Part shown: piece by piece, positions 23,636 through 40,839 of the stretch
Numbering within the stretch: position 1 is the stretch's first letter
Layout: each line of letters opens with the position of its first letter
Translations under genes and position numbers: made by a program
The notes under the pieces: generated by a model
What the model saw: only the letters and a program-made list of their open reading frames with translations
Told to the model about the DNA's origin: nothing
Database searches by the model: none
Origin: Actinomycetota bacterium
GTDB lineage: Bacteria; Actinomycetota; Actinomycetes; Mycobacteriales; Mycobacteriaceae
NCBI GenBank assembly: GCA_018268465.1
Contig: JAFDWN010000017.1
Span: 1 to 56,007, forward strand
Length of the DNA stretch: 56,007 nt
Direction of reading: 5' to 3'

Positions 23636-23760
23636 GCACGGTCGGGGCCGCGGCCCGTCCGAGCCCGGGTCGCCGCCCCGATTTCCGGATCGGCGGCGGG
23701 TTCGCCGGTGTAATGTCCGGGCGAAAAGGTGTTCGCGTGATCGCCCGGGAAAGGTCGGCC

Positions 23761-26112: not shown

Positions 26113-26261
26113 CGATCGCGCCCCGCCGGAACACCCGCCTCCGCACCGGCCCCGGGCATCCGCCCTCGCCCGCCACGTCGAAACACCGGGCATAACGGGG
26201 GCGTGCGACGCGGCGGGGACGGGGTGCGGCGGGGCCTCGACGTCCTCCTACCCTGAGAGCC

Positions 26262-27152
26262 ATGCTCACCGACCTCGTCGACCTGCCGGGCGGCCGGTTT
26301 CGCATGGGTTCGACGGCCTTCTACCCGGAGGAGGCGCCGGTGCACACCGTCGCCGTCGCCGCCGTGGCCGTCGAGAAGCACCCGGTCACCAATGCGCAGT
26401 TCGCCGAGTTCGTCGCCGACACCGGATACGTCACCGTCGCCGAACGACCGCTGGACCCGGCGCTCTACCCCGGGGTGGCACCGGCTGATCTGGTGCCCGG
26501 TGCGCTGGTGTTCCGTGCGACCGCCGGGCCGGTGGACCTGCGGGACTGGCGGCAGTGGTGGGACTGGGCGCCGGGGGCCTGCTGGCGCCATCCGTTCGGC
26601 CCGGAGACGTCGTGGCGGGATCGCCCCGACCATCCGGTGGTGCAGGTGGCCTTCCCGGACGCCGCGGAGTACGCGCGCTGGGCCGGCCGACGGTTGCCCA
26701 CCGAGGCGGAGTGGGAGTACGCCGCGCGGGCCGGCGCGGACACCACCTACGCGTGGGGGGACGAGGCGGCGCCGGGCGGCCGGCTGATGGCCAACACCTG
26801 GCAGGGCCGCTTCCCCTACCGCAACGACGGTGCGCTGGGCTGGGCCGGCACCTCGCCGGTCGGGACGTTCCCAGCCAACGGGTTCGGACTGCTGGACATG
26901 ATCGGCAACGTGTGGGAGTGGACGACGACCCGATTCTCGGCACACCACCGGCCCGGCGCTCAGGGGGCGTGCTGCCCCCCGCCGCCGCCGTCCGCCGATC
27001 CCACGGTCAACCAGACGCTCAAGGGTGGTTCACATCTTTGTGCACCCGAGTACTGCCACCGCTACCGTCCCGCCGCCCGGTCCCCGCAGTCGCAGGACAG
27101 CGCAACCACCCATATCGGCTTCCGATGTGTGACGGATCTTCCTGAGGTATGA
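26262..27152 (+). CDS. Formylglycine-generating enzyme (sulfatase activator)
   Basis: The 296-aa protein is a full-length FGE. It has the N-terminal GGRFRMGSTAFYPEEAPVH, RLPTEAEWEYAARAG, GNVWEWT, and the C-terminal active site GGSHLCAPEYCHRYRPAAR with Cys260 and Cys265 five residues apart, as in copper-dependent FGEs. It oxidises the Cys of the CxPxR motif in AtsA, encoded 150 nt upstream. The final GFRC is also typical. The pair is also found, from memory, at the same place in M. tuberculosis. Confidence 0.94.
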   Translation: MLTDLVDLPGGRFRMGSTAFYPEEAPVHTVAVAAVAVEKHPVTNAQFAEFVADTGYVTVAERPLDPALYPGVAPADLVPGALVFRATAGPVDLRDWRQWWDWAPGACWRHPFGPETSWRDRPDHPVVQVAFPDAAEYARWAGRRLPTEAEWEYAARAGADTTYAWGDEAAPGGRLMANTWQGRFPYRNDGALGWAGTSPVGTFPANGFGLLDMIGNVWEWTTTRFSAHHRPGAQGACCPPPPPSADPTVNQTLKGGSHLCAPEYCHRYRPAARSPQSQDSATTHIGFRCVTDLPEV

Positions 27153-27186
27153 AAGCGGCTGTTTTGCAATGCTTTCCACGTATCGA

Positions 27187-28749
27187 TCAGAAGACCAGGA
27201 TCGCGAACACGGTGGACAGCACCAGGCCCGCCATGACCGGCAGGAAGCACTTACGGGCCAGCGTCAGCACCGGAACCCTGGCGAACCCGGCCACCGCGAT
27301 CAGCGAAGACCACGCGACCAGCGTCCCGCCGCCGGACCAGATATTGCCCATCTGACCGATCGCCGCCAGTGTCGCGGGATCCATGTTCACCGCCGGGCCC
27401 AGCGCCCCGGCCAGCGAGCCGGTGAGGGGCAGGCCACTGAATCCGGACCCTTCCAGCCCGGCGATCAGGCCGACCAGCAGGACCGCGAAGGCGGTGATGA
27501 ACGGGTTCGGCGACAGATGCGACTGCCCGGCGTTGATGAGATCGAAGAGGAACGCCGGTCCCTGCACGCCCTCGGGAAGGCCGAGTATCGCCGCCGAGAA
27601 GTCGCCGTTGCCGATGAAGAAGAAGCCGGCGATCGGCAGCACCACACCCATGGCCTTGAAGGCGAACACCAAACCGTCGACGACATGCTGCGAGGACGTC
27701 TCCAGAAAGTTGCGCTTGTCGTTGGCCGCGGACGCGACGAACAGAATCAGCGCCGCGATCCCCCCGACGATCGCCGCGGCGTCACCGCCTTTGAGCGGCG
27801 GCACCAGGCTGGTGAACTTGCCCAGCATCAGGTACACGATGAAGACGAGATAGATCAGCGGTACCAGCACAGCGAAAACCTTGGCGCACCGCATCTTCGG
27901 TGGCGCCGCCGGATCCTGTACGGGATCGGCCAGCACCACGGTCGCGGTCGGCGCGGCGACGGACTTGTCCGAATCGACCCCGCCCGGGCGCGGCGACGGT
28001 GCGGGCGCGGGGTCACCGGTGTTCAGCTCACCGCGCAGGCCGCTGTCACCGGGCGCCGGTGAGCGTCCGGCCTCGTCCTCCCATTCGGCCAACAGTTCCG
28101 GGGACGGCGCGCGCCAGGTGCGGCGCTGCATCACGTAGGTGATGAGCAGGGCCGTCAACCCGACGATGAGCGACAGCACCAGCGCCTTGTCGGCGACCGA
28201 ATCGGCGTCTACCCCGGCGGCCTTCGCCGAGATCCCGGGTGCGACCTTGATGATGTAGTCCGAGGACAGCGCCATCCCCTGACCCGCGATGGCGATAACC
28301 ATGCCCACCGACAGCGGCGAGAGACCCGCCCGGATGGCCACGGGGATGAGCACCGCTCCCACCAGGGGCACCGCGGGTGTGGGCCAGAAGAACAGCGAGA
28401 TCACGTACGTCACGATCGCGAGGATGATGAAGCTGCTGGTCCCCGCGCGCATCACCCGCCGGAACGGCGTCACCATCATCCGGTCGGCGCCCATCTCCCG
28501 CAGCGCCCCGAGCATCGCCGTGACGACGGCGATGATCAGGAAGATGTTGAACAACTCCTTGGCGGCGACCAGGCTGGCGTTGAAGATGGACGACAGCCCG
28601 GTGATCAGGCTGCCCGAGAACGCCCATGCGGTCAGCATGGTGGCGGTGACCGCAGGCACCACGATGTTCTTGCGCAGTGCCATGGTGATGAGAATGACGA
28701 CGATGCCGGCTAGGTAGATCCAATGAGCCGCGCCGAGATGTGTGTCCAT
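27187..28749 (-). CDS. Polytopic membrane permease, ion-transporter-like
   Basis: The 520-aa protein has about 12 membrane helices in two halves joined by a hydrophilic, Pro/Asp/Glu-rich linker (about residues 205-275). Conserved-looking segments are FFWPTPAVPLVGAVLIPVA, AGQGMALSSDYIIK in the first half and IGQMGNIWSGGGTLVAWSS in the second. This resembles ion-transporter-superfamily carboxylate carriers, but I do not recognise the family with confidence, and the substrate is unknown. AAGGG lies before the ATG at 28749; the frame stays open 136 codons upstream but that part is not protein-like. It converges with the FGE gene. Confidence 0.7.
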   Translation of the reverse strand: MDTHLGAAHWIYLAGIVVILITMALRKNIVVPAVTATMLTAWAFSGSLITGLSSIFNASLVAAKELFNIFLIIAVVTAMLGALREMGADRMMVTPFRRVMRAGTSSFIILAIVTYVISLFFWPTPAVPLVGAVLIPVAIRAGLSPLSVGMVIAIAGQGMALSSDYIIKVAPGISAKAAGVDADSVADKALVLSLIVGLTALLITYVMQRRTWRAPSPELLAEWEDEAGRSPAPGDSGLRGELNTGDPAPAPSPRPGGVDSDKSVAAPTATVVLADPVQDPAAPPKMRCAKVFAVLVPLIYLVFIVYLMLGKFTSLVPPLKGGDAAAIVGGIAALILFVASAANDKRNFLETSSQHVVDGLVFAFKAMGVVLPIAGFFFIGNGDFSAAILGLPEGVQGPAFLFDLINAGQSHLSPNPFITAFAVLLVGLIAGLEGSGFSGLPLTGSLAGALGPAVNMDPATLAAIGQMGNIWSGGGTLVAWSSLIAVAGFARVPVLTLARKCFLPVMAGLVLSTVFAILVF

Positions 28750-29129
28750 GGGGGACCCTTCGTTACCACTGCTCTGGGCTGCGCAGTGCGTTGCAGGAAT
28801 GTTCGGCGCGGTCGTGAGCTGGGTCAACGACAACAGTGCACAGCCGAGACAGCCTCTGTGTGTGCAGTATGCTCGCATCTTGTCGGTGGCATGTCCCGCT
28901 GTATCTTTCGCGTAACAATCGGCCGGGGATGACGCGCTTACCCCACGTTCACAACGGTTGCCGGCTGGGCATGTTGTCCACACCGCGCGCCGGCCGGTGT
29001 GCACGATCACGGGGCGTAGGCGCACGGACGGCCCCCCGGCGGTGACAGAGTGGAGCCCACGACCCTCGGCGGTCCGGTTGCCGTATCGCGGGGACCATTC
29101 GGGTAGACAGGCGGGACAGCAGCGCAGCG
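28750..29129. other. 380-nt divergent intergenic region
   Basis: No supportable gene is seen. The region must hold the promoters of the minus-strand permease and plus-strand MFS genes. An inverted repeat CACACCG...CGGTGTG (28979-29001, 9-nt spacer) is the only clear structure and could be an operator. The MFS ATG has no clear SD sequence. Confidence 0.5.
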
Positions 29130-30503
29130 ATGACCGAAAGACCTTCGACCACAACACGATCGCCCGCGCCCGGCGTCGACACCGGTACCCCGTTGGGGCT
29201 GGCGGCGCTGTTGGCGGGGACCCTGGTCGGCACCGTCAGCAACAACATCGTGAACGTGCCGCTGGGGGCCATCCTGGACGACTTCGACGCCCCGCTGGGC
29301 AGCGGCATCTTCGTGGTGGTCGGTTTCCTGGTGTGTTTCGCGGCGACCGTGCCGCTGGCCGGCTGGTTCGGCGACCGGTTCGGCCGCCGCCGGGTGTACT
29401 GCGCGGCGCTGATCGGGACCGCAATCTGTGCCGTGGGCGCCGCGACGGCGCCGACGCTGCCGCTGCTCGTCGCGTGGCGCTCACTGGGCGGACTGGCCGT
29501 GGCCGCCCTGGCCCCACCCGTGATGGGGCTGCTCACCTGGATGTTCTCGGGTGACCGGCGCGGCAGGGCGGTCGGCGCGTGGGCATCGGTCAACGGGCTC
29601 GGTCAGGCGATCGGACCGACGCTGGGCGGCGTGGTCGCCGATGCCTGGGGGTGGCGCTGGGTGTTCGTCCCGCTGGTGCCGGTGGCGCTGATCGGCCTCG
29701 CCGGCACGCTGCGCTACGTGCCCCGCTATCCCGGCACGCGGATCTCCTTCGACCTCGCCGGCGCCGCCGCGCTGACGCTCGGTTCGGCGCTGCTGATGCT
29801 GGGGGTCGCGCTGCTGCCGCAGCCGGGTGGCGTGGTGTGGCTGGCCGTGGGGTGCGTCGGCGCGGCGGCGGTGACGTTGGCGTGGTTCGTGTGGCACTGC
29901 ATGCGGGTCGCCGAACCGTTCGTCGACGTCCGCCTCGTCGCCGAGTCGCGCTTCGCCCGCAGCGCACTGGCCGCCTTCGCGCAGATGTTCTGCCTGGGCG
30001 CGACCCTGTTGGCCGTACCGCTCTACCTGGTCGGGCAGTCGGTGTCGATCTCGGCCGCCGGGCTGATCCTGTTCGCGGTACCCGCCACGATGGCGGTGCT
30101 CGCGCCGCTGGTCGGGCGGTGGCTGGATCCGGTCGGACCGCGGCTGGTGATGCGCACGGGTCTTACGGTGCTGATGGTCGCGCAGGCCGCGCTCACCGCT
30201 GCCGTCGCGCTGGCGGCGCCGCTGGGTGTGCTGATCCCCGTGCTCGTCGGCACCGGCGTCGGTGTGGCCCTGGTGCAGACGCCCGCGGCCACCGGCGCGA
30301 CGCGCTCACCCGCGGGGGAGGCAGGCACCGGACTGGGTCTGTTCAACCTGATCAGGTTCGGCGGTTCGGCGATCGGTGCGGCCTGGGTCGGTGTCGCGCT
30401 GGAGTTCGCCACCTATCCGACGGTGTTCGTCGTGTCGGCCGTGATCGTGGCGTTCGGCCTGGCCGGGTCCTTCGTCGGACCCGACCCGCAGCCGGTGCGC
30501 TGA
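29130..30503 (+). CDS. MFS transporter, DHA-type
   Basis: The 457-aa protein has about 12-14 membrane helices. Motif A appears as GWFGDRFGRRRVY after TM2, and AVGAWASVNGLGQAIGPTLGG carries the antiporter motif C in TM5. A second half with ATLLAVPLYLVGQSVSIS is typical of EmrB/QacA relatives. It lies 3' to 3' with the PucR-type gene (2 nt apart) and upstream of the HDO operon region, so it may move the substrate or a toxic product of that pathway. This link is by proximity only. Confidence 0.85.
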   Translation: MTERPSTTTRSPAPGVDTGTPLGLAALLAGTLVGTVSNNIVNVPLGAILDDFDAPLGSGIFVVVGFLVCFAATVPLAGWFGDRFGRRRVYCAALIGTAICAVGAATAPTLPLLVAWRSLGGLAVAALAPPVMGLLTWMFSGDRRGRAVGAWASVNGLGQAIGPTLGGVVADAWGWRWVFVPLVPVALIGLAGTLRYVPRYPGTRISFDLAGAAALTLGSALLMLGVALLPQPGGVVWLAVGCVGAAAVTLAWFVWHCMRVAEPFVDVRLVAESRFARSALAAFAQMFCLGATLLAVPLYLVGQSVSISAAGLILFAVPATMAVLAPLVGRWLDPVGPRLVMRTGLTVLMVAQAALTAAVALAAPLGVLIPVLVGTGVGVALVQTPAATGATRSPAGEAGTGLGLFNLIRFGGSAIGAAWVGVALEFATYPTVFVVSAVIVAFGLAGSFVGPDPQPVR

Positions 30504-30505
30504 CC

Positions 30506-32179
30506 TCAGCGGAAACTGGCTTCGCGATCCACCGCGGAGTGCACGTCGCCGAGCAGGTCGAGCCGGATCGCCAGCCACGCGGTGAACTGGTTGTCGGCGA
30601 CCTTGATGTCCATGCCGAGGGTGCGTGAGATCCGGTCCAGCTTCGCCAGCATCGTGTTGCGGTGGACGTTGAGCACTCGCGCGGTGGCGTTGACGTTTCC
30701 CCCCTCGCCGAGGTAGGCGGCCAGTGTCTCCAGCAGATCCGGAGCCGACCGCAACGGCCCAAGGACCTCGCGCACCAGCTGGCGGCCGGAATCGGCGTCG
30801 GCCACGGCGTTGAGCACGGTGAAGCTGCGCAGTTCCTGATACGAGGTGGCACCCACCCGGCGGAGCCGGCGGGCGATGCCGAGTGCGACGCGGGCCTCGC
30901 GGTAGCTCTCCCGCACCTGCCCGGCCCCGTGGGCCGCGCGTCCGTAGGCGACCGGGGCCAGCCCGCCGCGCCGCCGGGCGATCTCGACCGACATCGCGTC
31001 GGCGTACTCGGCCATCTCCTCGGCCATCGCGCTCTCCTGCTCCGAACGCAGCGTGCGGACCACCACCAGCACGTCCCCGATGACGGTGACGTAGGCGTGA
31101 ACGGACGGATGGGGAGCCACCCCCGCGGCGTAGCGGGCGAGGCGGACCATACTCGCGGCGGGGTTGTCGACGCCGCGGGGCAGCAGTCCCGGCGCCACGA
31201 ACACCCCGAACCGGGCGTCCAGCTCGATGTCGTGGTGTTCGGCACGGGCCCGCATATCGTGTTCGCTGGCGAAACTGCCGTGCACGAGAGCCTGGACGAA
31301 GTCGCCGCGAGCGCGCTCCTCGGCCTCGTCGACGCTGCGCTGCCGCAACATCTCCGAACCGACGATCGCGGTCGCCTGCTCGGTGAGCACCGAATGCCTG
31401 GCCAGGTCGTGGTCGCCGGGCTCGGCGCCGGGCACCAGTATCACCACCCAGCCCTCGAAGGTCTTGCCCAACCGGATGGCGCTGGCCACACACGTCCATG
31501 GGCTGCCGTGCGGACCGGTGACCTGCGCCACCCTGGTGTCGTGCGCGCCCGGGCGTCGGGCCGCGGCCGGCAGATCGGTGGCCAGCAGCTGGCACACCGG
31601 GTCGGCCAGCGGCGGCATCGACTCGGCCGTCAGTCCGTGGAAGGCCACCACGGCCCCGCGCGCATCCAGGGCCAGTGCGGGATTGCGCGCCAGATTGGAC
31701 ACCTCGCGGATGAGCGTCTGCAGGCCCGCGCCCCGGTGGAACAGCCCCGCCAGCGAGCTGTGTACGTGCGTGGAGTAGCGCATGACGTGCACTTCCTGGC
31801 TGAGCGCCCGCTCGGCCAGCAGGCGGTTGAGGGCGGCGAAACCCACGGGGACGGCCAGTTCGATGACGACCAGCCGCGGGGGCAGCCCCGTGCGGACGAG
31901 GTCGGCGGGCACGGCCCCGTCGACCAGCAGTGTGGTGGCGCCGCGCGCGATCAGCGCCGACAACGTCCCGCCGCTGCCCACCAGGGCTTCAGGGCGTGTG
32001 TAGACGGCGACGGCGTCGAGTGAATCAGGTTGGGAGAGAACCTCGTTGAGTGGAAGAACCCAGTTGAGCTCGACGTCGAGAAGGTCCTCGCCGGATACCA
32101 CCCTGGCGCCGAACATCAGTGACTCGTCCAGGAGTCCGCGTGCCGTCATGCGGCCGCCGTCGGTATGTGTTCGCGTCAT
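30506..32179 (-). CDS. PucR-family transcriptional regulator
   Basis: The 557-aa protein has an N-terminal PucR ligand domain (MFGARVVSGEDLLDVELNWV..., 10-140), a middle GAF/GGDEF-like region and a C-terminal HTH_30 helix-turn-helix (NVNATARVLNVHRNTMLAKLDRI) near residue 505. PucR proteins activate purine, amine or aromatic catabolism genes in response to substrate. It is divergent from the glcG-HDO operon with a 205-nt shared promoter region holding an inverted repeat, so it most likely controls that operon. The start is taken at MTRTHTDGG; MTARGLLDES, 10 codons on, is also possible. Confidence 0.88.
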   Translation of the reverse strand: MTRTHTDGGRMTARGLLDESLMFGARVVSGEDLLDVELNWVLPLNEVLSQPDSLDAVAVYTRPEALVGSGGTLSALIARGATTLLVDGAVPADLVRTGLPPRLVVIELAVPVGFAALNRLLAERALSQEVHVMRYSTHVHSSLAGLFHRGAGLQTLIREVSNLARNPALALDARGAVVAFHGLTAESMPPLADPVCQLLATDLPAAARRPGAHDTRVAQVTGPHGSPWTCVASAIRLGKTFEGWVVILVPGAEPGDHDLARHSVLTEQATAIVGSEMLRQRSVDEAEERARGDFVQALVHGSFASEHDMRARAEHHDIELDARFGVFVAPGLLPRGVDNPAASMVRLARYAAGVAPHPSVHAYVTVIGDVLVVVRTLRSEQESAMAEEMAEYADAMSVEIARRRGGLAPVAYGRAAHGAGQVRESYREARVALGIARRLRRVGATSYQELRSFTVLNAVADADSGRQLVREVLGPLRSAPDLLETLAAYLGEGGNVNATARVLNVHRNTMLAKLDRISRTLGMDIKVADNQFTAWLAIRLDLLGDVHSAVDREASFR

Positions 32180-32212
32180 CGGGTCGTCCCGCCCTCGAAG
32201 TGTGCGTTCTCT

Positions 32213-32252
32213 ACGGAGTACAGGAACTCCGTGCACTCAAACCATGTGCACT
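32213..32252. promoter_or_regulatory. Candidate PucR operator region
   Basis: ACGGAGT (32213-32219) and ACTCCGT (32226-32232) form an inverted repeat with a 6-nt spacer. GTGCACT occurs at 32231-32237 and again at 32246-32252. The elements sit between the divergent pucR and glcG genes, 34 nt from the regulator start. Binding is inferred. Confidence 0.45.
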
Positions 32253-32384
32253 TTAACCGTACGCGACAGGCGCCGCAGGTCATCTTGACCATGTCGCCGC
32301 GAACGGCGGAGCGGTAGACATGGCACACGGTCGGCCCAACCGGCGATCGGCAGGGGTCGCGGGGCCCCAGAAAGTGAGACGACT

Positions 32385-32837
32385 ATGCACCAGATCCACC
32401 GGATCACACTCGACGACGCACTGCCCTTGCTGGCGGCCGGACGTGCCAAGGCCGAGGAGATCGGCGTCAAGCAGACGCTGTGTGTCTGCGACGACGGCGG
32501 CAATGTCCTTGCGCTGCACCGGCTTCCGGGTGCGCGGTTGACGGGGGTCGACATCGCCATCGCGAAGGCGTTCACCGCCGCCGGGCACGAACGTGCGACC
32601 CATCTGTTCAACGAGCCGCCCAACGGACCCGCGCTGCCCGGCAACGAGGCGTTCGGGATCAGCCATATGCTGCCGGGCAAATTCGCCATCTTCGTCGGAG
32701 GGTTCCCGCTGGTCTTCGACGGTCAGATCGTCGGCGGTGTGGGCATCAGTGGCGGCAACGGCGAACAGGACAAGGCCGTCGGCGCGGCGATCCTGGCCGA
32801 GTTCGACGCCCTCACCGCCGCCGTCGCACGGCGGTGA
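32385..32837 (+). CDS. GlcG/HbpS family heme-binding protein
   Basis: The 150-aa protein is a single GlcG/HbpS (PduO C-terminal-like) domain: ITLDDALPLLAAGRAKAEEIG at the start, VCDDGGNVLALHRLPGARL, and FVGGFPLVFDGQIVGGVGISGG near the end. Members bind heme or corrinoids and are often encoded beside oxygenases or dehydrogenases; the exact role is seldom known. No signal peptide is seen, so it is cytoplasmic. It is the first gene downstream of the divergent promoter region with pucR, 189 nt before the HDO gene. Confidence 0.85.
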   Translation: MHQIHRITLDDALPLLAAGRAKAEEIGVKQTLCVCDDGGNVLALHRLPGARLTGVDIAIAKAFTAAGHERATHLFNEPPNGPALPGNEAFGISHMLPGKFAIFVGGFPLVFDGQIVGGVGISGGNGEQDKAVGAAILAEFDALTAAVARR

Positions 32838-33026
32838 CCGGCTGTGCACCTTGACCCCGACGCGGGCGGATCGGCAGTGGTTTTGTCCATCGCCCGCAGC
32901 CAGGGTCGACATTAATCTGGTTGCCGCAGAGTCAGTTTCGTACTTATTCCGTTCTATCTCCGCCGTCAGATCCGATCACTCTCCGCGGTGTGGCGGAGGC
33001 CTCTCTCACCCAGAAGGGACAATCCG

Positions 33027-33746
33027 ATGACCGAACTCCTCGGGCGCGACGAGTTTCGCGCCGAACTCGAGAATGCGATCAAGGGCCGCGAGGCCAAGAA
33101 TGCCTCATTCTCCAAGGCGTGGGCCGACGGCCGGCTGCAGCGCCACCACTTCGCCCGGTGGGCCGAGAACCATTACCACTACGTCGGACCGTTCGCCGAC
33201 TACTTGGCCAACATCTACGCCAACACCCCCGACCAGTTCACCGGGGCCAAGGACTTCACCCTGCAGAACATGTACGAGGAGGAGTTGGCCGACATCCGGC
33301 ACACCGACTTGCTCATCAAGTTCGGCGAGGCGTGCGGCACCACCCGCGAGCGCATCGAGGATCCCGACAACATGAATGCGATCACCCGGGGCCTGCAGTC
33401 CTGGTGCTACGCGGTATCGCAGCGCGAGCATTTCGTCGTGGCCACCGCCGCGCTGGTGGTGGGCCTGGAATCGCAGGTGCCCAGCATCTACACCAAGCAG
33501 ATCGTGCCGCTGCGCGAGGTGTACAAGTTCACCGAGGACGAGATCGAGTTCTTCGACCTGCACATCACCTCCGATGTGGTGCACGGTGAACGCGGCTACC
33601 AGATCGTGCTCGACCACGCCGACACCCCGCAGCTGCAGCAGCGCTGCCTGCAGATGGTGCGCTGGGGCGCGGAGATGCGCTTCTCGTACACCAAGGGTCT
33701 CTACGACACCTACGTCGCGCCCGAACTCGAGGCCGCAACCGTCTGA
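33027..33746 (+). CDS. Heme-oxygenase-like diiron oxidase (HDO), TenA/PqqC-like
   Basis: The 239-aa all-helical protein has the metal-ligand pattern of heme-oxygenase-like iron oxidases: EEELADIRH (Glu85, His92), GLESQ (Glu148) and LHITSDVVHGE (His179, Asp183, His187). Such proteins (PqqC-like/CADD-like) bind one or two irons and use O2 to oxidise, cleave or hydroxylate amines and acids. The ATG follows AGAAGGGA. A TAATCT at 32913-32918 could be a -10 box, giving a leader of about 100 nt. The two Rieske ferredoxins and reductase downstream would supply electrons, which makes this the likely terminal oxygenase of the cluster. A plain TenA thiaminase is less likely. Confidence 0.75.
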   Translation: MTELLGRDEFRAELENAIKGREAKNASFSKAWADGRLQRHHFARWAENHYHYVGPFADYLANIYANTPDQFTGAKDFTLQNMYEEELADIRHTDLLIKFGEACGTTRERIEDPDNMNAITRGLQSWCYAVSQREHFVVATAALVVGLESQVPSIYTKQIVPLREVYKFTEDEIEFFDLHITSDVVHGERGYQIVLDHADTPQLQQRCLQMVRWGAEMRFSYTKGLYDTYVAPELEAATV

Positions 33747-33763
33747 ACCCCGCCCCTCCCTGC

Positions 33764-33812
33764 GATTTCGGTGCGCTTACGTGCCCCGAGCGCACGTAAG
33801 CGCACCGGAATC
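33764..33812 (+). other. 21-bp near-perfect hairpin between HDO and Rieske genes
   Basis: The arms 33764-33784 and 33792-33812 pair over 21 positions with a single G-U in RNA, around a 7-nt loop CCCGAGC. The core is GGTGCGCTTACGTGC and its complement. It begins 17 nt after the HDO stop and ends 18 nt before the next ATG. No T-run follows, so it is not a classic terminator; partial termination, RNA processing or a miniature palindromic repeat are options. Confidence 0.75.
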
Positions 33813-33830
33813 GCTTCGAAAGGACACCCC

Positions 33831-34193
33831 ATGACCGCTGACTGGATCGCGGTGGCGACGACCGCCGACCTCGCCCGTCGACGCAAACTCCGCGTCGAAC
33901 TCGACGGCGTGCCCGTCGCGCTGTTCCAGGCGGCGGACCGGGTGTACGCCTTCCACGACGTCTGCGTGCACCAGGACCGGTCCCTGTTCAAGGGCACGCT
34001 GCTGCACGGCAAGGTCATCTGCCCGGGCCACCAGTGGCAGTTCGACCTCGAGACGGGATACGAAGAGAGCCAGGACCGTTGCCAACCCACCTACCCCGTG
34101 CGGGTCGAGGCGGACACCATCTACGTGCGCCCCGAACCGCGGGTCGGTACGGCCGTGCCGGCCGGACACGACGCAGAGGAGACTTCGCGATGA
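33831..34193 (+). CDS. Rieske [2Fe-2S] ferredoxin (first copy)
   Basis: The 120-aa protein has one Rieske domain with CVHQD and CPGHQ, the Cys-x-His and Cys-x2-His ligands, spaced as in ferredoxins of ring-hydroxylating systems. No catalytic (alpha subunit) domain is attached. It would carry electrons from the reductase encoded next, whose ATG overlaps its stop by 4 nt, to an oxygenase, here most likely the HDO. AGGA lies before the ATG, after the hairpin. Confidence 0.92.
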   Translation: MTADWIAVATTADLARRRKLRVELDGVPVALFQAADRVYAFHDVCVHQDRSLFKGTLLHGKVICPGHQWQFDLETGYEESQDRCQPTYPVRVEADTIYVRPEPRVGTAVPAGHDAEETSR

Positions 34194-35449
34194 GTGAGCG
34201 CACATTCGTCACCATCGGTGCCGGACAGACCGCCGCCGTCGCGGCCCGCACCTTGCGGCGGCGCGGATTCGACGGACGCATCGTGCTGATCGGCGACGAG
34301 CCGTACGCCCCCTACCAACGGCCGCCGCTGTCCAAGGAGTTCCTGGCCGGCGACGACGGCCTTGACACGCTGAGCATCCTGCCCGCCAGCTGGGTGGCCG
34401 ACAACGACGTCGAGATCCTCACCGCGACCACGGTAACCCGAGTCGACCCGGGCACGCGGCAGGTCGAAAACGACGGTGGCAAAACCATTCTCGCTGACGC
34501 CGTACTGTTCGCCACCGGCGGAACACCGCGGACGCTGACGGTGCCCGGCCCGCGCCCGGACCTCGTGCACCACCTGCGCACCGCCGACGACGCGCTGCGG
34601 CTGCGGCCGCTGATGGCGCCGGGACGGCGGCTGGCGCTGATCGGCGCGGGCTTCATCGGACTCGAGATCGCCGCGACCGCATCGGCCGCCGGCGCCGAGG
34701 TGACGCTGCTGGAAGCCGCCCCGGTGCCGCTCGGCCGGATCGTGGGTGCCCGGATGGGTGCCGAATGCGTACGCCTGCATCGCGACAACGGCGTGGACGT
34801 GCGCGCCGGGACGGCGGTCGCCGCGGTGCGGACGACCGCCGACGGTGTCCTCATCGAGTGCGACGGCGTCCCACCGCTGGAAGTCGACGCCGTGGTGGTG
34901 GGAATCGGCATCACCCCGAACGTCTCCACCGCCGTTGCGTCGGGTCTGGCCGTCGACGACGGCATCGTGGTCGACGCGCAGGGCCGCACCGCCGTACCCC
35001 AGGTATTCGCCGCAGGTGACGTCGCCCGCCGCTTCTCTCCGCGGGCCGGCACCCACGTGCGCCTGGAACACTTCGACAACGCCAACAAGCAGGGCGCGGC
35101 CGCGGCCAACGCGATGCTCGGGCGCGACGCGGTGTCCGACGAGGCCAACTGGTTCTGGTCGGACCAATTCGGCCACAACATCCAATTCATCGGTGCCGCA
35201 CCGCAGCACAGCGAAATCGTGGTGCGCGGCAATGTCGACGAGCGCGACTTCGCGGCGTTCTACCTCGAACACGGGGTGCTGCGTGGCGCATTCGCCATCG
35301 ACCGTGGCGAGGATGTCATGGTCGCGCGCGAACTGCTGGGCCGCAGCGCCGATGCCGCGGTGCTCGCCGACGAGGACGCCGATCTGTGGGAGCTCACCAC
35401 CACCGAATTCGACGACGACGCCCAGACCGCCGAGGTGACACACCGATGA
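34190..35449 (+). CDS. NAD(P)H-dependent ferredoxin reductase
   Basis: The 419-aa flavoprotein has an FAD motif TIGAGQTAAVAARTL, PYQRPPLSKEFL (the BphA4/putidaredoxin reductase signature), a NAD-binding motif ALIGAGFIGLEIAATA and VFAAGDVAR near residue 280. The C-terminal domain resembles that of BphA4-type reductases. It passes electrons from NADH to Rieske ferredoxins. ATGA overlaps at both ends couple it to the Rieske and ALDH genes. Confidence 0.93.
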   Translation: MSERTFVTIGAGQTAAVAARTLRRRGFDGRIVLIGDEPYAPYQRPPLSKEFLAGDDGLDTLSILPASWVADNDVEILTATTVTRVDPGTRQVENDGGKTILADAVLFATGGTPRTLTVPGPRPDLVHHLRTADDALRLRPLMAPGRRLALIGAGFIGLEIAATASAAGAEVTLLEAAPVPLGRIVGARMGAECVRLHRDNGVDVRAGTAVAAVRTTADGVLIECDGVPPLEVDAVVVGIGITPNVSTAVASGLAVDDGIVVDAQGRTAVPQVFAAGDVARRFSPRAGTHVRLEHFDNANKQGAAAANAMLGRDAVSDEANWFWSDQFGHNIQFIGAAPQHSEIVVRGNVDERDFAAFYLEHGVLRGAFAIDRGEDVMVARELLGRSADAAVLADEDADLWELTTTEFDDDAQTAEVTHR

Positions 35450-36906
35450 ACCACCACAGCGGCGCCGGGGAGAACGGCGCCAACTACATCGACGGCCGTT
35501 GGGTGCCAGCGCAATCCGGCGCCACCTTCGAGCGGCGCAATCCCGCCGACCCCTCCGACGTGGTCGGCGTCTTCCCGGATTCCGGACCCGCCGACGTGCG
35601 CGCCGCGGTCGACGCGCTGGAGAAGGCGGCGCCCGAGTGGGCGTCGGTTCCCCCGGAGAACCGGGCGCGGATCCTGGAATCGGCTGCGGCGCAACTTGAA
35701 TCGATGAACTCCCAACTCGTGGGCGAACTCATCCGGGAAGAGGGGAAAACCCGCGCCGAGGCGACGATGGAGGTCGGCCGCACACCGGCCAACCTGAGGT
35801 TCTACGCGGCCGAGGCGGTGCGAGCCACCGGCGCCACCTACCCGGCCGCGGGGGAAGGTCTGGTCTACACCGTGCGCGAACCGGTCGGCATCGTCGGGGT
35901 GATCACACCGTGGAACTTCCCGCTCAACATCCCCTCACGCAAGATCGGTCCCGCTCTGGCCGCGGGAAACCCCGTGCTGTACAAGCCGTCCGAGATCACC
36001 CCGCTGATGGGCCAGCGTCTGGTCGAAGCCCTGCTCGCGGCCGGGTTGCCCGCCGGTGCCATCGCCCTCGTGCAGGGCGGCGGCGGCGCGGGCGCCGCGG
36101 TGGCCGCCGACGTCCGGGTTGCCGCGGTGACATTCACCGGCTCCACCGCGGTCGGCAGGTCCATCCATCGCAACGTCGGACCGGACCGCCGCGTCCAACT
36201 CGAAATGGGCGGCAAGAACCCGGTGGTGGTGGCCGCCGACGCGGATCTCGACCGTGCCGCGGCGCTCATCGTCAAGGGCGCGTTCGGTCTCACCGGACAG
36301 GCGTGCACGGGCACGAGCCGCGTCATCGCCCTCGACGCGATCCACGACGCGCTCCTCGACCGCGTCGTGGCCAAGGCCGAAAGCCTGCGGGTCGGGGCCG
36401 GTGACCGGCCCGACGTCGACCTGGGGCCGCTGGCCAGCGCGGCGCAACTGGAGAAGTTCCTCACCTACGTGCGGGTGGGAGTCGAGGAGGGCGCCACCCT
36501 GCGCTGCGGGGGCACCGCGGAGGGTGACGGCGGATTCTTCGTCCGCCCCACGGTGTTCGCCGACACCGAACCCACCATGCGGATCGTCACCGAGGAGGTC
36601 TTCGGCCCGCTGGTGGCATTCCAGCGCGCGGCGTCCCTGGATGCGGCGCTCGAGCTGGCGAACGCCACGGAGTACGGGCTCTCGGCCGCGATCGTGACCA
36701 ACGACCTGAGCGCGGCCGCACAGTTCGCCCGGCGGGTCCGCAGCGGAGTGGTCAAGATCAACCAGTCGACCACCGGCAACGCGATGAACGCGCCGTTCGG
36801 CGGATTCAAATCGTCCAGCACGTCGACCTTCAAAGAGCAGGCAGGTCCGACGCTGATGGAGTTCTACCTGCTCGAAAAGACCGTCTACCTGACCCCCGCG
36901 GTCTGA
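35446..36906 (+). CDS. Aldehyde dehydrogenase
   Basis: The 486-aa protein is a full-length NAD(P)-dependent ALDH. It has TPWNFPLNIPSRKIGPALAAG (cofactor site), LEMGGKNP with the general base Glu253, GQACTGTSR with the nucleophile Cys287 and a C-terminal PFGGFKSSS. It would oxidise an aldehyde released by the upstream oxidase to the acid. The substrate cannot be told; semialdehyde dehydrogenases (gamma-glutamyl-aminoaldehyde, alpha-ketoglutarate semialdehyde) are the nearest in look. The start overlaps the reductase stop. Confidence 0.93.
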   Translation: MNHHSGAGENGANYIDGRWVPAQSGATFERRNPADPSDVVGVFPDSGPADVRAAVDALEKAAPEWASVPPENRARILESAAAQLESMNSQLVGELIREEGKTRAEATMEVGRTPANLRFYAAEAVRATGATYPAAGEGLVYTVREPVGIVGVITPWNFPLNIPSRKIGPALAAGNPVLYKPSEITPLMGQRLVEALLAAGLPAGAIALVQGGGGAGAAVAADVRVAAVTFTGSTAVGRSIHRNVGPDRRVQLEMGGKNPVVVAADADLDRAAALIVKGAFGLTGQACTGTSRVIALDAIHDALLDRVVAKAESLRVGAGDRPDVDLGPLASAAQLEKFLTYVRVGVEEGATLRCGGTAEGDGGFFVRPTVFADTEPTMRIVTEEVFGPLVAFQRAASLDAALELANATEYGLSAAIVTNDLSAAAQFARRVRSGVVKINQSTTGNAMNAPFGGFKSSSTSTFKEQAGPTLMEFYLLEKTVYLTPAV

Positions 36907-36933
36907 CCCCAACGCCAGAACACGGAGCTACCC

Positions 36934-37290
36934 ATGGAATTCAAGAGAGTCGCCCGGTCGGGGCAGGTGCCGGAAGGGATCGTGCGGCGCTTCTACGCCG
37001 ACGAGTACGAGTTCGCGGTGGCCCGTCTCAACGGCAAGGCGTACGCGTGCTCGAACTACTGCACCCATCTGGACTGCCTGCTGTCCTCGGGCAAGCTCGT
37101 CGACGACGGCATCGGCTGCTCCTGCCACGGCAGCGCGTTCGACCTGGAGACCGGTGAGCCGATCTGCCCGCCCGCCACCGAGCCGATCAAGACCTATCCC
37201 GTCCAGGAACGAGACGGGGAGATCTACGTCGGCGTCGACCCCGACGACATCCCGGAAGGCCCGCGGCGGCGGGCCAAGCGCGGCGCATGA
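36934..37290 (+). CDS. Rieske [2Fe-2S] ferredoxin (second copy)
   Basis: The 118-aa protein is a single Rieske domain with CTHLD and CSCHG as ligand pairs and GSAFDLETGEPICPPATEPIKTYPV, as in BphA3/NirD-like ferredoxins. It differs clearly from the first Rieske of the operon, so it is not a recent duplicate. It lies 27 nt after the ALDH gene and overlaps the GGT-like gene by 4 nt. It may serve a different step, or be an alternative carrier for the same oxygenase. Confidence 0.92.
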   Translation: MEFKRVARSGQVPEGIVRRFYADEYEFAVARLNGKAYACSNYCTHLDCLLSSGKLVDDGIGCSCHGSAFDLETGEPICPPATEPIKTYPVQERDGEIYVGVDPDDIPEGPRRRAKRGA

Positions 37291-38885
37291 ACCCGCTTCC
37301 GCCGCGCCCGTCGGCGCTGTCCTCCGGCGGCATGGTCAGCTCCAGCCACCCCGCCGCCAGCTTCGCCGGCGCCCGGGTGCTGGCCGAGGGCGGCAACGCC
37401 GTCGACGCGACACTGGCGATGGCGGCGATCACCTGGTTGACACTGCCGGGGCAGTGCGGGCCGGGTGGTGACGCATTCGCCGTGGTCAGAGAGCCCGACG
37501 GCAGAGTGTGGACCGTCGGCGGCTCGGGTTACGGGCCCGACGGCGCGACCCCCGAGTTCTACCGGGAGCGCGGCCTGTCGAGCATCCCGCTCGACGGGGC
37601 GCTGGCAGTCGCGGTCCCCGGAGCGCCGGCCGCACTGGCCGCCCTGCACGCGCATGGGGCGACGATCGCGCTGACCGACCTGTGGGAGCCGGCGGCCCGG
37701 CTGGCCGAGACCGGGCTGCCGTGTTCGGCCAAGACCGCGTCCGACGTCCGCACCGAAGTCGAGGCGCTGCGCGCCGATCCGGCGACGGCGGCCAACTTCC
37801 TCCCGGCGTCCGCGCCACCCCATGTCGGGGACCTGATGCGCCAGGCCGACCTCGCGCGCACCATCCGGCGGCTGTCCCGCGATCCGGGCGGCTTCTACAC
37901 CGGCGAGTTCGCCGAACGGGCGGTGGCGGCGCTGCGTGCCGGCGGTGCGCCGTTCAGCGGCGACGAGTGGGCTGCGACGGCGGACGCGACGCCGGCGCCA
38001 TCGGTCACCGGCAGCTACGCCGGCGCGACCGTGCACCAGACACCACTGCCGACCCCGGGCTGGATGGTGCTGCAGCAGGCCGCGCTCTGCGACGGCGTCG
38101 TCGGCTTCCTGCCCTGGTTGTCCGCCGAGGCGATCGACCGGCTGGCCCGCGCCGCCCGGATGTCCTTCGCCGACCGGTTCGCGTGGTGCGGCAGCGACAC
38201 CGGCGGCGCGCTGGAGGTGCTCGACCCGCAGCGGATCGAGCGGCAGCGCGCGGAACTCGAGAGCGGCAGGATGCCGGTGTTCAGCGTCCGCGCCGGTGAC
38301 ACCACGTCGACGGTCGCGGTGGACGCCGACGGCCGCGCGGTCAGCTTCATCCACTCGCTGGCGCTGACCTTCGGCGCGCGGTTCACCGTCCCCGGCACGG
38401 GGGTGGTGCTCAACAACCGCCTGGGCCGCGGCGCCTACCTGATCGACGGCCACCCGAACGCGGTGGCACCGCGCCGCAAACCGCTGCACACACTCAACGC
38501 GTGGATCGTGACCGACGGCGACCGGGGTGAGCTTCTGCACGTCGGAAACACCCCCGGCGGCGACGGTCAGGTGCAGTGGAACATGCAGCTGCTGTCCCAT
38601 CTGCTCGACCACGGACTGGACCCCCAGGAGGCGGTGGCGGCGCCGCGGTTCACCGTGTTCCCCGGATCGGACGCCGACGTCGTCGGCCTGCCCGACGAAC
38701 TGCGCGTCGAGACCACCATCGCCGAGCCCATCCGCGACGCGCTGCGCACCCGTGGCCACACCGTCGTCGCGCAGCCCGCGTATGGCGCCGGTGGCAGCGC
38801 GCAGGTGATCAGCCGCAGCCCGCGCGGTGTCTTGCACGGTGGTGCCGACCCGCGCCAGGAGGGTGTGGCGATCGGTGTCGACTGA
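37287..38885 (+). CDS. Gamma-glutamyltransferase-family Ntn hydrolase
   Basis: The 532-aa protein has the GGT large-subunit start (HPAASFAGARVLAEGGNAVDATLA), then the autoprocessing site GDTTSTVAVD, where Thr339 would become the N-terminal nucleophile. The small subunit contains GTGVVLNN and LHTLNAWIV. There is no signal peptide, so it acts in the cytoplasm, unlike classic secreted GGT. It could free an acid from a gamma-glutamyl conjugate, or act as an amidohydrolase, as some GGT-fold enzymes (oxamate amidohydrolase) do. TTST in place of the usual TTH-S motif favours a non-standard substrate. Confidence 0.88.
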   Translation: MNPLPPRPSALSSGGMVSSSHPAASFAGARVLAEGGNAVDATLAMAAITWLTLPGQCGPGGDAFAVVREPDGRVWTVGGSGYGPDGATPEFYRERGLSSIPLDGALAVAVPGAPAALAALHAHGATIALTDLWEPAARLAETGLPCSAKTASDVRTEVEALRADPATAANFLPASAPPHVGDLMRQADLARTIRRLSRDPGGFYTGEFAERAVAALRAGGAPFSGDEWAATADATPAPSVTGSYAGATVHQTPLPTPGWMVLQQAALCDGVVGFLPWLSAEAIDRLARAARMSFADRFAWCGSDTGGALEVLDPQRIERQRAELESGRMPVFSVRAGDTTSTVAVDADGRAVSFIHSLALTFGARFTVPGTGVVLNNRLGRGAYLIDGHPNAVAPRRKPLHTLNAWIVTDGDRGELLHVGNTPGGDGQVQWNMQLLSHLLDHGLDPQEAVAAPRFTVFPGSDADVVGLPDELRVETTIAEPIRDALRTRGHTVVAQPAYGAGGSAQVISRSPRGVLHGGADPRQEGVAIGVD

Positions 38886-39297
38886 TGCCCCCGCGCCCCC
38901 GGAACCGCAGGGTGACTATGTGCCGGCCACCGTCCACAACGGCGTCGTCTACACCGCGGGTATGACACCCAGGGTGGACGGACGGATGACCGTCACCGGC
39001 GTGGTCGGCGACTCGCTGACCACCACACAGGCCCGGGAGGCCGCCGGTGTCGCCGCCAGGAACGCGCTGGCCGCCGCGCGGGCGGCGCTTCCCTCCGGTG
39101 CGCTGCGCTGCCTGAAGATGACGGTGTTCGTGGCCTGCAGTCCCGACTTCCACGACTTGTCCCAGGTGGCCGACGGCGCGTCCGCGGTCATCGGGGCGGA
39201 GTTGGGCGCCCGGCTGCCCGCACGCAGCGCCATCGGGGTCCAAAGCCTGCCCTCGGGCGCGCCCGTCGAGGTCGAACTCGTCTGTGCGGAGGGCTGA
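38875..39297 (+). CDS. RidA/YjgF-family imine deaminase
   Basis: The 140-aa protein matches RidA-like proteins: YVPATVHNGVVYTAGMTPR, EAAGVAARNALAAARAAL, LKMTVFVACSPDFHDLSQVADG and ARSAIGVQSLPSGAPVEVELVC. These hydrolyse enamines/imines formed from amines and amino acids. The Arg that binds carboxylates is present in LPARSAIG. It starts at a GTG inside the end of the GGT-like gene (11-nt overlap), with AGGAGG 12 nt before it. Its presence suggests an imine intermediate in the pathway. Confidence 0.88.
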   Translation: MSTDAPAPPEPQGDYVPATVHNGVVYTAGMTPRVDGRMTVTGVVGDSLTTTQAREAAGVAARNALAAARAALPSGALRCLKMTVFVACSPDFHDLSQVADGASAVIGAELGARLPARSAIGVQSLPSGAPVEVELVCAEG

Positions 39298-39420
39298 GCC
39301 CCGCCGACCGTAACGTGGGGGCGGTTCGCGGCCGGATAACCCGCCGTGGCGTTACATTCGCGGAGGTGGCGCCGACACTCCCATTCGCCGATCCCGTGCG
39401 ACAGGCTGACCAGCGGCGAT

Positions 39421-39464
39421 TTGGTTCCTCGCGGTGCTTCGCCTAGACTTCACTGGTTGCCTTG
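39421..39464 (+). promoter_or_regulatory. spc operon promoter and start-site motif
   Basis: TTGGTT (39421-39426), a 17-nt spacer and TAGACT (39444-39449) form a good SigA promoter. Five nucleotides further on comes GGTTGCCTTG (39455-39464), identical in sequence and spacing to the rpsJ promoter. The leader to rplN would be about 120 nt. Confidence 0.78.
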
Positions 39465-39528
39465 GGCAGACCTCGTTCAGCCGCGCTTGCGTGGCAGACC
39501 CTGCGTGCCCTTCGGTGACAAAGACCGC

Positions 39529-39555
39529 GCACGTCCAGGTCGGTATCTGGCGTGC
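39529..39555 (+). promoter_or_regulatory. Leader hairpin upstream of rplN
   Basis: GCACG-T-CCAG, an 8-nt loop, then CTGG-CGTGC: a 9-bp stem with one bulged T. It ends 15 nt before the AGGAG of rplN, a fitting place for ribosomal-protein feedback. No known ligand can be named. Confidence 0.5.
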
Positions 39556-39580
39556 ATACGAAACCAGGTCAGGAGATCGA

Positions 39581-39949
39581 GTGATTCAGCAGGAATCGCG
39601 GTTGAAGGTCGCCGACAACACGGGCGCCAAGGAGATCTTGTGCATCCGTGTGCTCGGCGGCTCGTCGCGACGCTATGCCGGCATCGGCGACATCATCGTG
39701 GCGACCGTCAAGGACGCCATCCCCGGCGGCAACGTCAAACGCGGTGACGTGGTCAAGGCCGTCGTGGTGCGCACCGTCAAGGAGCGTCGCCGCGCCGACG
39801 GCAGCTACATCAAGTTCGACGAGAACGCCGCCGTCATCATCAAGAACGACAACGACCCGCGCGGTACCCGAATCTTCGGGCCCGTCGGTCGCGAACTGCG
39901 TGAGAAGCGCTTCATGAAGATCGTCTCGCTCGCCCCGGAGGTGTTGTAG
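39581..39949 (+). CDS. rplN: 50S ribosomal protein L14
   Basis: The 122-aa protein begins [24 protein letters not shown] and has [19 protein letters not shown] and [17 protein letters not shown], standard L14. The GTG at 39581, with AGGAG 5 nt before it, gives the universal N-terminus. It opens the spc operon after an unusual 22-kb separation from the S10 operon. Confidence 0.98.
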
Positions 39950-40267
39950 ATGAAGGTCCACAAGGGCGACACGGTGCTCGTCATCTCGGGCAAGGACAAG
40001 GGCGCCAAGGGCAAGGTGATCCAGGCCTACCCGACGCGTAACAAGGTGCTCGTCGAGGGCGTCAACCGGATCAAGAAGCACACCGCGGTCTCGCGCAACG
40101 AGCGTGGCGCCTCCTCCGGCGGCATCGTCACCCAGGAGGCTCCGATCCACGTCTCCAACGTCATGGTGGTCGACTCCGACGGCAACCCCACCCGCATCGG
40201 GTACCGCATCGACGCCGAGACCGGCAAGAAGGTGCGCGTCTCGAAGCGCAACGGCAAGGACATCTGA
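39950..40267 (+). CDS. rplX: 50S ribosomal protein L24
   Basis: The 105-aa protein starts with [22 protein letters not shown], the KOW motif of L24, which starts assembly of the 50S subunit, and ends [22 protein letters not shown]. It directly abuts rplN and overlaps the rplE start. Confidence 0.98.
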
Positions 40268-40839
40268 TGACCACTGTTGAGAAGGCACAAAAGGTGCAGC
40301 CCCGCCTGAAGGAGCAGTACCGCAACGAGATCCGCGACGCTCTGTTGAAGCAGTTCGAGTACGCCAACGTCATGCAGATCCCCGGCGTGGTGAAGGTCGT
40401 CGTGAACATGGGTGTCGGCGACGCCGCCCGCGACGCGAAGCTGATCAACGGCGCGGTCAACGACCTGGCGCTGATCACCGGCCAGAAGCCCGAGGTGCGC
40501 CGCGCCCGAAAGTCCATCGCACAGTTCAAACTGCGCGAGGGCATGCCCATCGGTGCGCGCGTGACGCTGCGCGGTGACCGGATGTGGGAGTTCCTCGATC
40601 GGCTGATCTCCATTGCGCTGCCGCGTATCCGTGACTTCCGCGGCCTGAGCCCCAAGCAGTTCGACGGCACCGGCAACTACACGTTCGGACTCAACGAGCA
40701 GTCGATGTTCCACGAGATCGACGTGGACTCGATCGACCGTCCCCGTGGCATGGACATCACCGTCGTCACCTCGGCGACGACCGACGATGAAGGACGAGCG
40801 CTGCTGCGGGCCCTCGGCTTCCCGTTCAAGGAGAACTGA
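40267..40839 (+). CDS. rplE: 50S ribosomal protein L5
   Basis: The 190-aa protein has [45 protein letters not shown] and the C-terminal [28 protein letters not shown]5 binds 5S rRNA and contacts the P-site tRNA. It overlaps rplX by one base. Confidence 0.98.

Follow-up and report, generated by a model that had tools for sequence, protein, structure and literature searches.

What would a gene cluster use two Rieske ferredoxins and a ferredoxin reductase for, if the only oxygenase candidate within it is a predicted heme-oxygenase-like dimetal oxygenase (HDO)? This question is raised by a 56,007-nucleotide stretch of DNA from a bacterium of the Mycobacteriaceae (contig JAFDWN010000017.1 of assembly GCA_018268465.1; the whole stretch is called the window hereafter). 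Here, a PucR-type regulator gene stands opposite eight genes in the order GlcG, HDO, Rieske ferredoxin 1 (Rieske1), ferredoxin reductase (FdR), aldehyde dehydrogenase (ALDH), Rieske ferredoxin 2 (Rieske2), a GGT-fold hydrolase and RidA, spanning positions 30506-39297. The genome analysed comprises 6.88 Mb, and a scan for relatives of the HDO identified Mycolicibacterium as the source of the nearest relatives of the window. The best explanation, which as a whole is given a probability of roughly 0.6, is that the cluster encodes a multicomponent HDO system which depends on ferredoxins and catalyses the first step in the breakdown of an anionic compound that contains nitrogen. A sequence-only reading of the same DNA had listed these eight genes and the divergent regulator, all of which were recovered in place, and had taken them for an oxygenase-based analogue of the Puu putrescine pathway.

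Co-conservation of the HDO with ferredoxins and reductase

When 84,980 species genomes were scanned with the HDO, 510 relatives were returned; the analysis retained the best 80, which are 81-97% identical and bear actinobacterial names. A gene counted as present if tblastn matched it at E 1e-6, and the counts cover the 62 actinobacterial loci flanked by 9 kb or more on each side, the 18 of the 80 loci that had no full flanks being excluded. HDO, Rieske1, FdR, Rieske2 and a transporter encoded upstream (TRN) were found at all 62 loci, followed by PucR and ALDH (61 each), GlcG and RidA (60 each), a major facilitator superfamily (MFS) transporter (58), and the GGT-fold protein (57). Oxygenase, ferredoxins and reductase are thus co-encoded and co-inherited in 62/62 loci, as is characteristic of a ferredoxin-dependent multicomponent oxygenase. 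Many soil actinobacteria carry the cluster, and its gene order varies by group: the GGT/RidA block lies upstream of the HDO in Actinomadura and on the opposite strand in Pseudonocardia.

Of 148 congeneric genomes, the same 17 contained orthologues of HDO, GlcG and Rieske2, a pattern beyond chance that reflects co-inheritance rather than 17 independent events because the genes are linked in one locus and the genomes are related. Co-conservation had been proposed as a check on the operon, and both the locus survey and the congeneric counts uphold a single co-conserved gene cluster whose members stay together across actinobacterial neighbourhoods in varied orders. The HDO is rare across the phylum (2/296 genomes at E 1e-30, and 7/296 in a looser profile search, five of these being distant matches), as is TRN (1/296 genomes at E 1e-40). 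Among 72,556 plasmid records, the HDO occurred in six and TRN in seven, including the same six, while the GGT-fold protein had no match in plasmids at E 1e-60.

Both ferredoxins appear equipped to carry their clusters. Rieske1 (33831-34193, forward strand; PF00355, 54.3 bits) has the cluster ligands C45, H47, C64 and H67 in 79/79 matched loci, and Rieske2 (36934-37290, forward; PF00355, 64.2 bits) has C43, H45, C62 and H65 in 75/75, the two proteins being 33% identical over 85 residues. FdR (34190-35449, forward) is an FAD-containing reductase of the BphA4/putidaredoxin-reductase type with Pyr_redox_2 and Reductase_C domains, and its relatives in the PDB include 3lxd, BphA4 (1d7y) and 1q1r.

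A BphA4-like reductase would also suit an arrangement in which the HDO acts alone and the electron carriers work for a Rieske oxygenase or P450 whose gene lies elsewhere, and the genome does contain seven Ring_hydroxyl_A (PF00848) matches, all on other contigs, and many P450 matches. This arrangement is nevertheless improbable, since both ferredoxins, FdR and the HDO occur together in every locus counted and the type of electron chain switches beside the HDO, as set out below. The sequence-only reading had stated that neither a Rieske oxygenase alpha subunit nor a P450 was present. The first part holds for the window, which has no PF00848 match, and no P450 was found among the scanned operon proteins, but a cytochrome P450 is encoded in the window at about 8111-8980 on the reverse strand, ~24 kb from the HDO. 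Within the cluster itself, the HDO remains the sole oxygenase candidate, as had been proposed.

Exchange of the electron chain beside the HDO

The strongest argument for ferredoxins that serve the HDO comes from three Burkholderiales loci, two from Cupriavidus (L082 and L084) and one from Caballeronia (L083). These retain the HDO (66-70% identical), ALDH (48%), GlcG (55-60%) and TRN (46-53%), and no match to Rieske1, Rieske2 or FdR was found in any of the three. Two plant-type ferredoxins and a Fer2-FAD-NAD (BenC-type) reductase are encoded instead, and because the electron chain has been replaced non-homologously beside the HDO, the ferredoxins most likely work for it. An OCD-family protein (imino-acid-reductase family) stands in for RidA and the GGT-fold protein at these loci. 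Between Caballeronia and the two Cupriavidus loci, the ferredoxins FdxA and FdxB are 76-78% and 73-74% identical, respectively, and a small protein encoded between them is 36-37% identical; this small protein (L083:11078-11428; L082:8403-8741) has no Pfam or NCBIfam match. The sequence-only reading had overlooked this replacement.

I infer that NADH would supply electrons to FdR, and that at least one of the two Rieske ferredoxins would carry them on to the dimetal site of the HDO, by analogy to two systems described in the available text of PMC7782822 and PMC13185094. The mangotoxin HDO MboA requires the flavin/2Fe-2S reductase MboB, so that an HDO is combined with a co-encoded NAD(P)H-flavin-2Fe-2S partner of the same domain make-up as the Burkholderiales reductase; MboA, however, is biosynthetic, acts on a tripeptide, and is described with no mention of ferredoxins in the available part of PMC13185094, whereas catabolic-type genes and two ferredoxins are found here. 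The 2-aminoisobutyrate monooxygenase AibH1H2-AibG-AibF of Rhodococcus, which serves amino acid catabolism, draws on a Rieske ferredoxin and a reductase and likewise combines a non-Rieske dimetal oxygenase with a catabolic cluster that includes a transporter and a dehydrogenase, but its oxygenase is an amidohydrolase-fold pair, it has one ferredoxin, and its reductase is of the FMN type (PMC7782822, in the part available). A ferredoxin-dependent HDO is the part of the explanation given most confidence, and is considered quite likely.

Several observations weigh against the explanation as a whole. The 80 loci stand closest among the 510 relatives, and more remote ones may show lower conservation; at some loci the matches to ALDH (down to 40% identity), PucR (33%) and MFS (42%) are possibly paralogues; and GGT, RidA, MFS, GlcG, ALDH or PucR is absent from one to five of the 62 loci. 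In Caballeronia, a Rieske alpha/beta pair is encoded ~10 kb from the cluster and could use some of the ferredoxins there, although neither Cupriavidus locus has a match to its alpha subunit. Finally, an HDO of 73% identity from a different actinobacterial family (genome G031, locus L094) is accompanied by just one Rieske protein (36%), and no match to FdR or TRN was found within ~20 kb of it, which makes the second ferredoxin, FdR and TRN each non-universal. The same locus has GGT-like (28%), OCD-like (34%), GlcG (49%) and ALDH (51%) proteins. An oligopeptide-type ABC transporter, recognised by eye only, is also encoded near this HDO.

The HDO as a predicted dimetal oxygenase

The HDO (33027-33746, forward strand) is a CADD-like protein that scores 119.9 bits against Haem_oxygenas_2 (PF14518) versus 35.7 bits against TENA_THI-4. 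Its AlphaFold model (predicted local distance difference test, pLDDT, 83.3) is matched by Foldseek to CADD, PqqC, UndA and HrmI, with a template-modelling (TM) score normalised by target of 0.87 to 1rcw, so the modelled structure has the helical heme-oxygenase-like fold. Alignment to CADD predicts the metal ligands E85, H92, E148, H179, D183 and H186, the 3 His/3 carboxylate set of the superfamily, and these are invariant in 83/83 loci.

The nearest characterised relatives, the para-aminobenzoate (pABA) synthases CADD and NePabS, share the fold and the six metal ligands and differ in gene context and in the residues that they sacrifice. The available text of PMC13108848 names the sacrificial residues of CADD as Tyr27 and Lys152; the corresponding positions are Ser29 and Gln158 in all 83 loci, and the protein scores 87.3 bits against the CADD-family model TIGR04305, whose cut-off is 200. 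These two results argue against a CADD-type pABA synthase, and together the fold and the invariant ligands make the HDO a plausible dimetal oxygenase, as far as model and alignment can indicate.

According to the 2026 review PMC13108848 (in the part available), the HDO superfamily has more than 10,000 members, about a dozen of them characterised, and those that it describes make natural products or pABA and are biosynthetic. By precedent, the cluster could therefore serve biosynthesis or detoxification, for instance by N-oxygenation, or encode a CADD-like cofactor enzyme. The locus itself speaks against this: the recurrent neighbours included no recognisable polyketide synthase, non-ribosomal peptide synthetase or ligase, the cluster encodes RidA, ALDH, an N-terminal nucleophile (Ntn) hydrolase and transporters of the uptake type, and the CADD-specific residues are replaced throughout. 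Such a function is accordingly rated as improbable as that of ferredoxins serving a distant oxygenase.

Accessory enzymes, transporters and the type of substrate

The GGT-fold Ntn hydrolase (37287-38885, forward strand; PF01019, G_glu_transpept, 306 bits) has its Thr nucleophile, T340, in all 66 loci aligned there, two further loci giving no residue. At the positions of E. coli GGT R114, D433, S462 and S463, which I take to be the gamma-glutamyl recognition residues, it has S, H, H/N and T. It scores 230.3 bits against the NCBIfam GGT model TIGR00066 (cut-off 357.85), and its nearest solved chains are the GGT-related Ntn hydrolases 2i3o and 2nlz. Because the presumed recognition positions are replaced, a gamma-glutamyl substrate is unlikely, and the protein is probably an amidohydrolase that has no gamma-glutamyl recognition residues.

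This bears directly on the Puu-like route that had been proposed, in which the HDO would oxidise a gamma-glutamylated amine and the GGT-fold protein would remove the glutamyl group. A GGT fold, ALDH and RidA do occur in one operon, and PuuC is among the NCBIfam matches of ALDH, though far down the list (258 bits). The presumed gamma-glutamyl-binding positions, however, are replaced in every locus read, the score lies below the GGT cut-off, the protein is missing from 5/62 loci and from the three Burkholderiales loci, and an anion-carrier-like TRN fits an amine poorly. Moreover, no glutamine-synthetase-like gene or other gamma-glutamyl ligase was recognised in the recurrent neighbour clusters viewed, which were assessed by eye and in some cases by profile, with no search aimed at ligases. 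The Puu-like route is therefore very improbable. The broader proposal fared better: a catabolic role that includes steps on an amide, an imine and an aldehyde is supported as likely.

ALDH (35446-36906, forward; Aldedh) is closest among NCBIfam models to 2,5-dioxovalerate dehydrogenase (506 bits, below the cut-off of 750), and has C287 and E253 each in 77/78 matched loci. The RidA-family protein (38875-39297, forward; PF01042, Ribonuc_L-PSP, 55.6 bits), for which the start codon was assumed within an open reading frame (ORF) that opens at 38827, has its Arg (R118 of P0009) in 69/69 matched loci. GlcG/HbpS (32385-32837, forward; PF03928, HbpS-like, 112 bits), a DUF336 protein, has EfgA and NahX among its PDB relatives; EfgA is a formaldehyde sensor, and other DUF336 members are found in pathways with aldehydes (PMC8153426, in the part available). 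A link to formaldehyde via EfgA is only suggestive.

Upstream of the operon, beyond the regulator gene, lie two co-conserved transporter genes which the sequence-only reading had overlooked, while its eight genes and regulator stand. TRN (27187-28749, reverse strand; 520 aa) has no Pfam match at E 0.05, and only one copy was found in its own genome at E 1e-40. Its model matches carriers of the DASS, ArsB and TRAP-M families and has the fold of the ion-transporter (IT) superfamily, so that TRN appears to resemble anion carriers, a match of fold and not evidence of substrate. The MFS transporter (29130-30503, forward; PF07690, 165.7 bits) is divergent from TRN across 380 bp and convergent with PucR at a gap of 2 nt. 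A second TRN paralogue was seen in 13 loci, in 11 of them directly downstream of RidA (L005, L007, L008, L012, L013, L015, L016, L017, L026, L027 and L035) and in two elsewhere in the locus (L045 and L049); in several loci it is followed by an amidase-signature gene, the amidase cluster being present in eight loci by eye.

The pyrimidine pathway Rut combines an oxygenase, an amide hydrolase, a Rid protein, an aldehyde step and a transporter in one operon, with the flavin monooxygenase RutA in the position that the HDO would take here. A more specific form of the best explanation is thus that the HDO and its ferredoxins replace a flavin monooxygenase and cleave a lactam, imide or N-heterocycle, after which an amide would be hydrolysed, a Rid step would take place and an aldehyde would be oxidised. 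The role-by-role match (oxygenase, amide hydrolase, Rid, aldehyde enzyme and transporter) and the amidase 3' of the cluster in several relatives favour it. On plasmid p1 of Arthrobacter sulfonylureivorans (L096, 12284-23624), a TRN homologue (42%) stands beside an LLM flavin oxidoreductase, a flavin reductase, an amidase, an ALDH and a Rid hydrolase, with no HDO, which suggests by analogy a Rut-like logic with interchangeable oxygenases. But this is a single locus whose amidase and ALDH are merely 36-42% identical to those of the window, a ring substrate is not indicated, and an ALDH is found where a reductase would stand. A Rut-like cleavage is therefore unlikely in this specific form, while being a better candidate than any of the alternatives above.

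Gene layout, regulatory elements and a hairpin after the HDO

From the HDO onward the genes are tightly packed, with gaps of 84, -4, -4, 27 and -4 nt, the 4-nt overlaps being those of Rieske1/FdR, FdR/ALDH and Rieske2/GGT; the extent of the GGT/RidA overlap is set by the choice of the RidA start. The regulator (PucR; 30506-32179, reverse strand, start codon assumed) has HTH_30 and GGDEF_2 domains. A bipartite element, TGTGCAC..(T)nACC...TTG(A/T)CC, is found upstream of GlcG (32245-32290, forward) and again upstream of the HDO (32843-32888, forward), and the pattern has only one further hit in the window. Many close relatives have it at these places, while 8 of the 11 more distant loci inspected had no hit near these genes or no hit at all. 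Across the 80 loci there were 85 hits: 25 stood no more than 300 bp from the PucR start, 22 were equally close to the HDO, and the others lay elsewhere. A block-shuffled control for 30 loci gave 12 hits against 49 real ones, an enrichment that is partly circular because the pattern was built from the two window copies and an alignment consensus. Both elements are candidate PucR sites, the second of which may mark an internal promoter region.

A 23-bp hairpin (33762-33814, forward; RNA -47.7 kcal/mol, z -9.7) lies 3' of the HDO and ahead of the Rieske1 ribosome-binding site. A stem of at least 11 bp occurs at this position in 65/83 loci, the position being kept while the sequence differs, and an exact-pattern search found the window's copy nowhere else in its own genome. 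By comparison, 11-bp stems follow ALDH in 2/77, FdR in 4/77, GGT in 12/66, Rieske2 in 13/74, RidA in 19/69, GlcG in 21/74 and Rieske1 in 24/79 loci, and mononucleotide shuffles (five per locus) gave 7-15%. Scans of 32000-39600 for sigma-70-type promoters and intrinsic terminators returned none of either, so by that scan the hairpin is not a U-tract terminator; it may keep the HDO expressed at a higher level than the electron carriers. A comparison of 26000-40000 with Rfam yielded a single match at E 1 or better, to a miRNA family that is implausible here and scored far under its threshold.

The cluster is flanked by a sulfatase and an FGE-type gene (23593-27152) on one side and ribosomal-protein-like ORFs (39582-40839; rplN region, by eye) on the other, and both flanks recur in several Mycolicibacterium loci. 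A DUF1275 membrane protein adjoins the cluster repeatedly (27 loci, e.g. L045:3664-4410).

Discussion

In the pathway proposed here, the substrate would be imported by TRN and perhaps also by the MFS transporter. With electrons supplied through FdR and the ferredoxins, the HDO would activate O2 and oxidise the substrate, most probably at a position adjacent to nitrogen or by cleaving a C-C or C-N bond. Steps on an imine, an amide and an aldehyde are proposed because RidA or OCD, an Ntn hydrolase and ALDH are encoded: an imine product would go to RidA (to the OCD-family imino reductase in Burkholderiales), an amide to the GGT-fold hydrolase, and an aldehyde to ALDH, while GlcG/DUF336 may act as a binder or sensor of an aldehyde or of another reactive intermediate. 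PucR would control two promoter regions that share one element. I infer both the class of substrate and the order of reactions from these genes: catabolism of an anionic nitrogen compound appears somewhat likelier than other fates, and the exact order of steps is doubtful. Profile libraries, neighbour clusters, related plasmid loci and the literature did not reveal the substrate.

Fold, ferredoxins and reductase are all of known kinds, and a catabolic HDO with dedicated ferredoxins was not described in the literature found. MboAB is described as perhaps the first case in which an HDO has been characterised together with a redox partner dedicated to it (PMC13185094, in the part available). The literature search, whose coverage left most subscription journals outside, returned no paper pairing an HDO with Rieske ferredoxins, and the Rieske mentions in the available part of PMC13108848 concern a Rieske dioxygenase. 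The cluster may represent a new class of multicomponent oxygenase, tentatively one in which a catabolic HDO has two different dedicated [2Fe-2S] ferredoxins, has its electron chain swapped en bloc, and begins a Rut-like breakdown of an anionic nitrogen compound that an unclassified anion-type carrier takes up. The known range of HDOs would then include catabolic enzymes and enzymes whose turnover is fed by ferredoxins, and the cluster shows which partner proteins a reconstitution of HDO activity would require. A gene set widespread in actinobacteria and a transporter that has no Pfam family would likewise gain a function.

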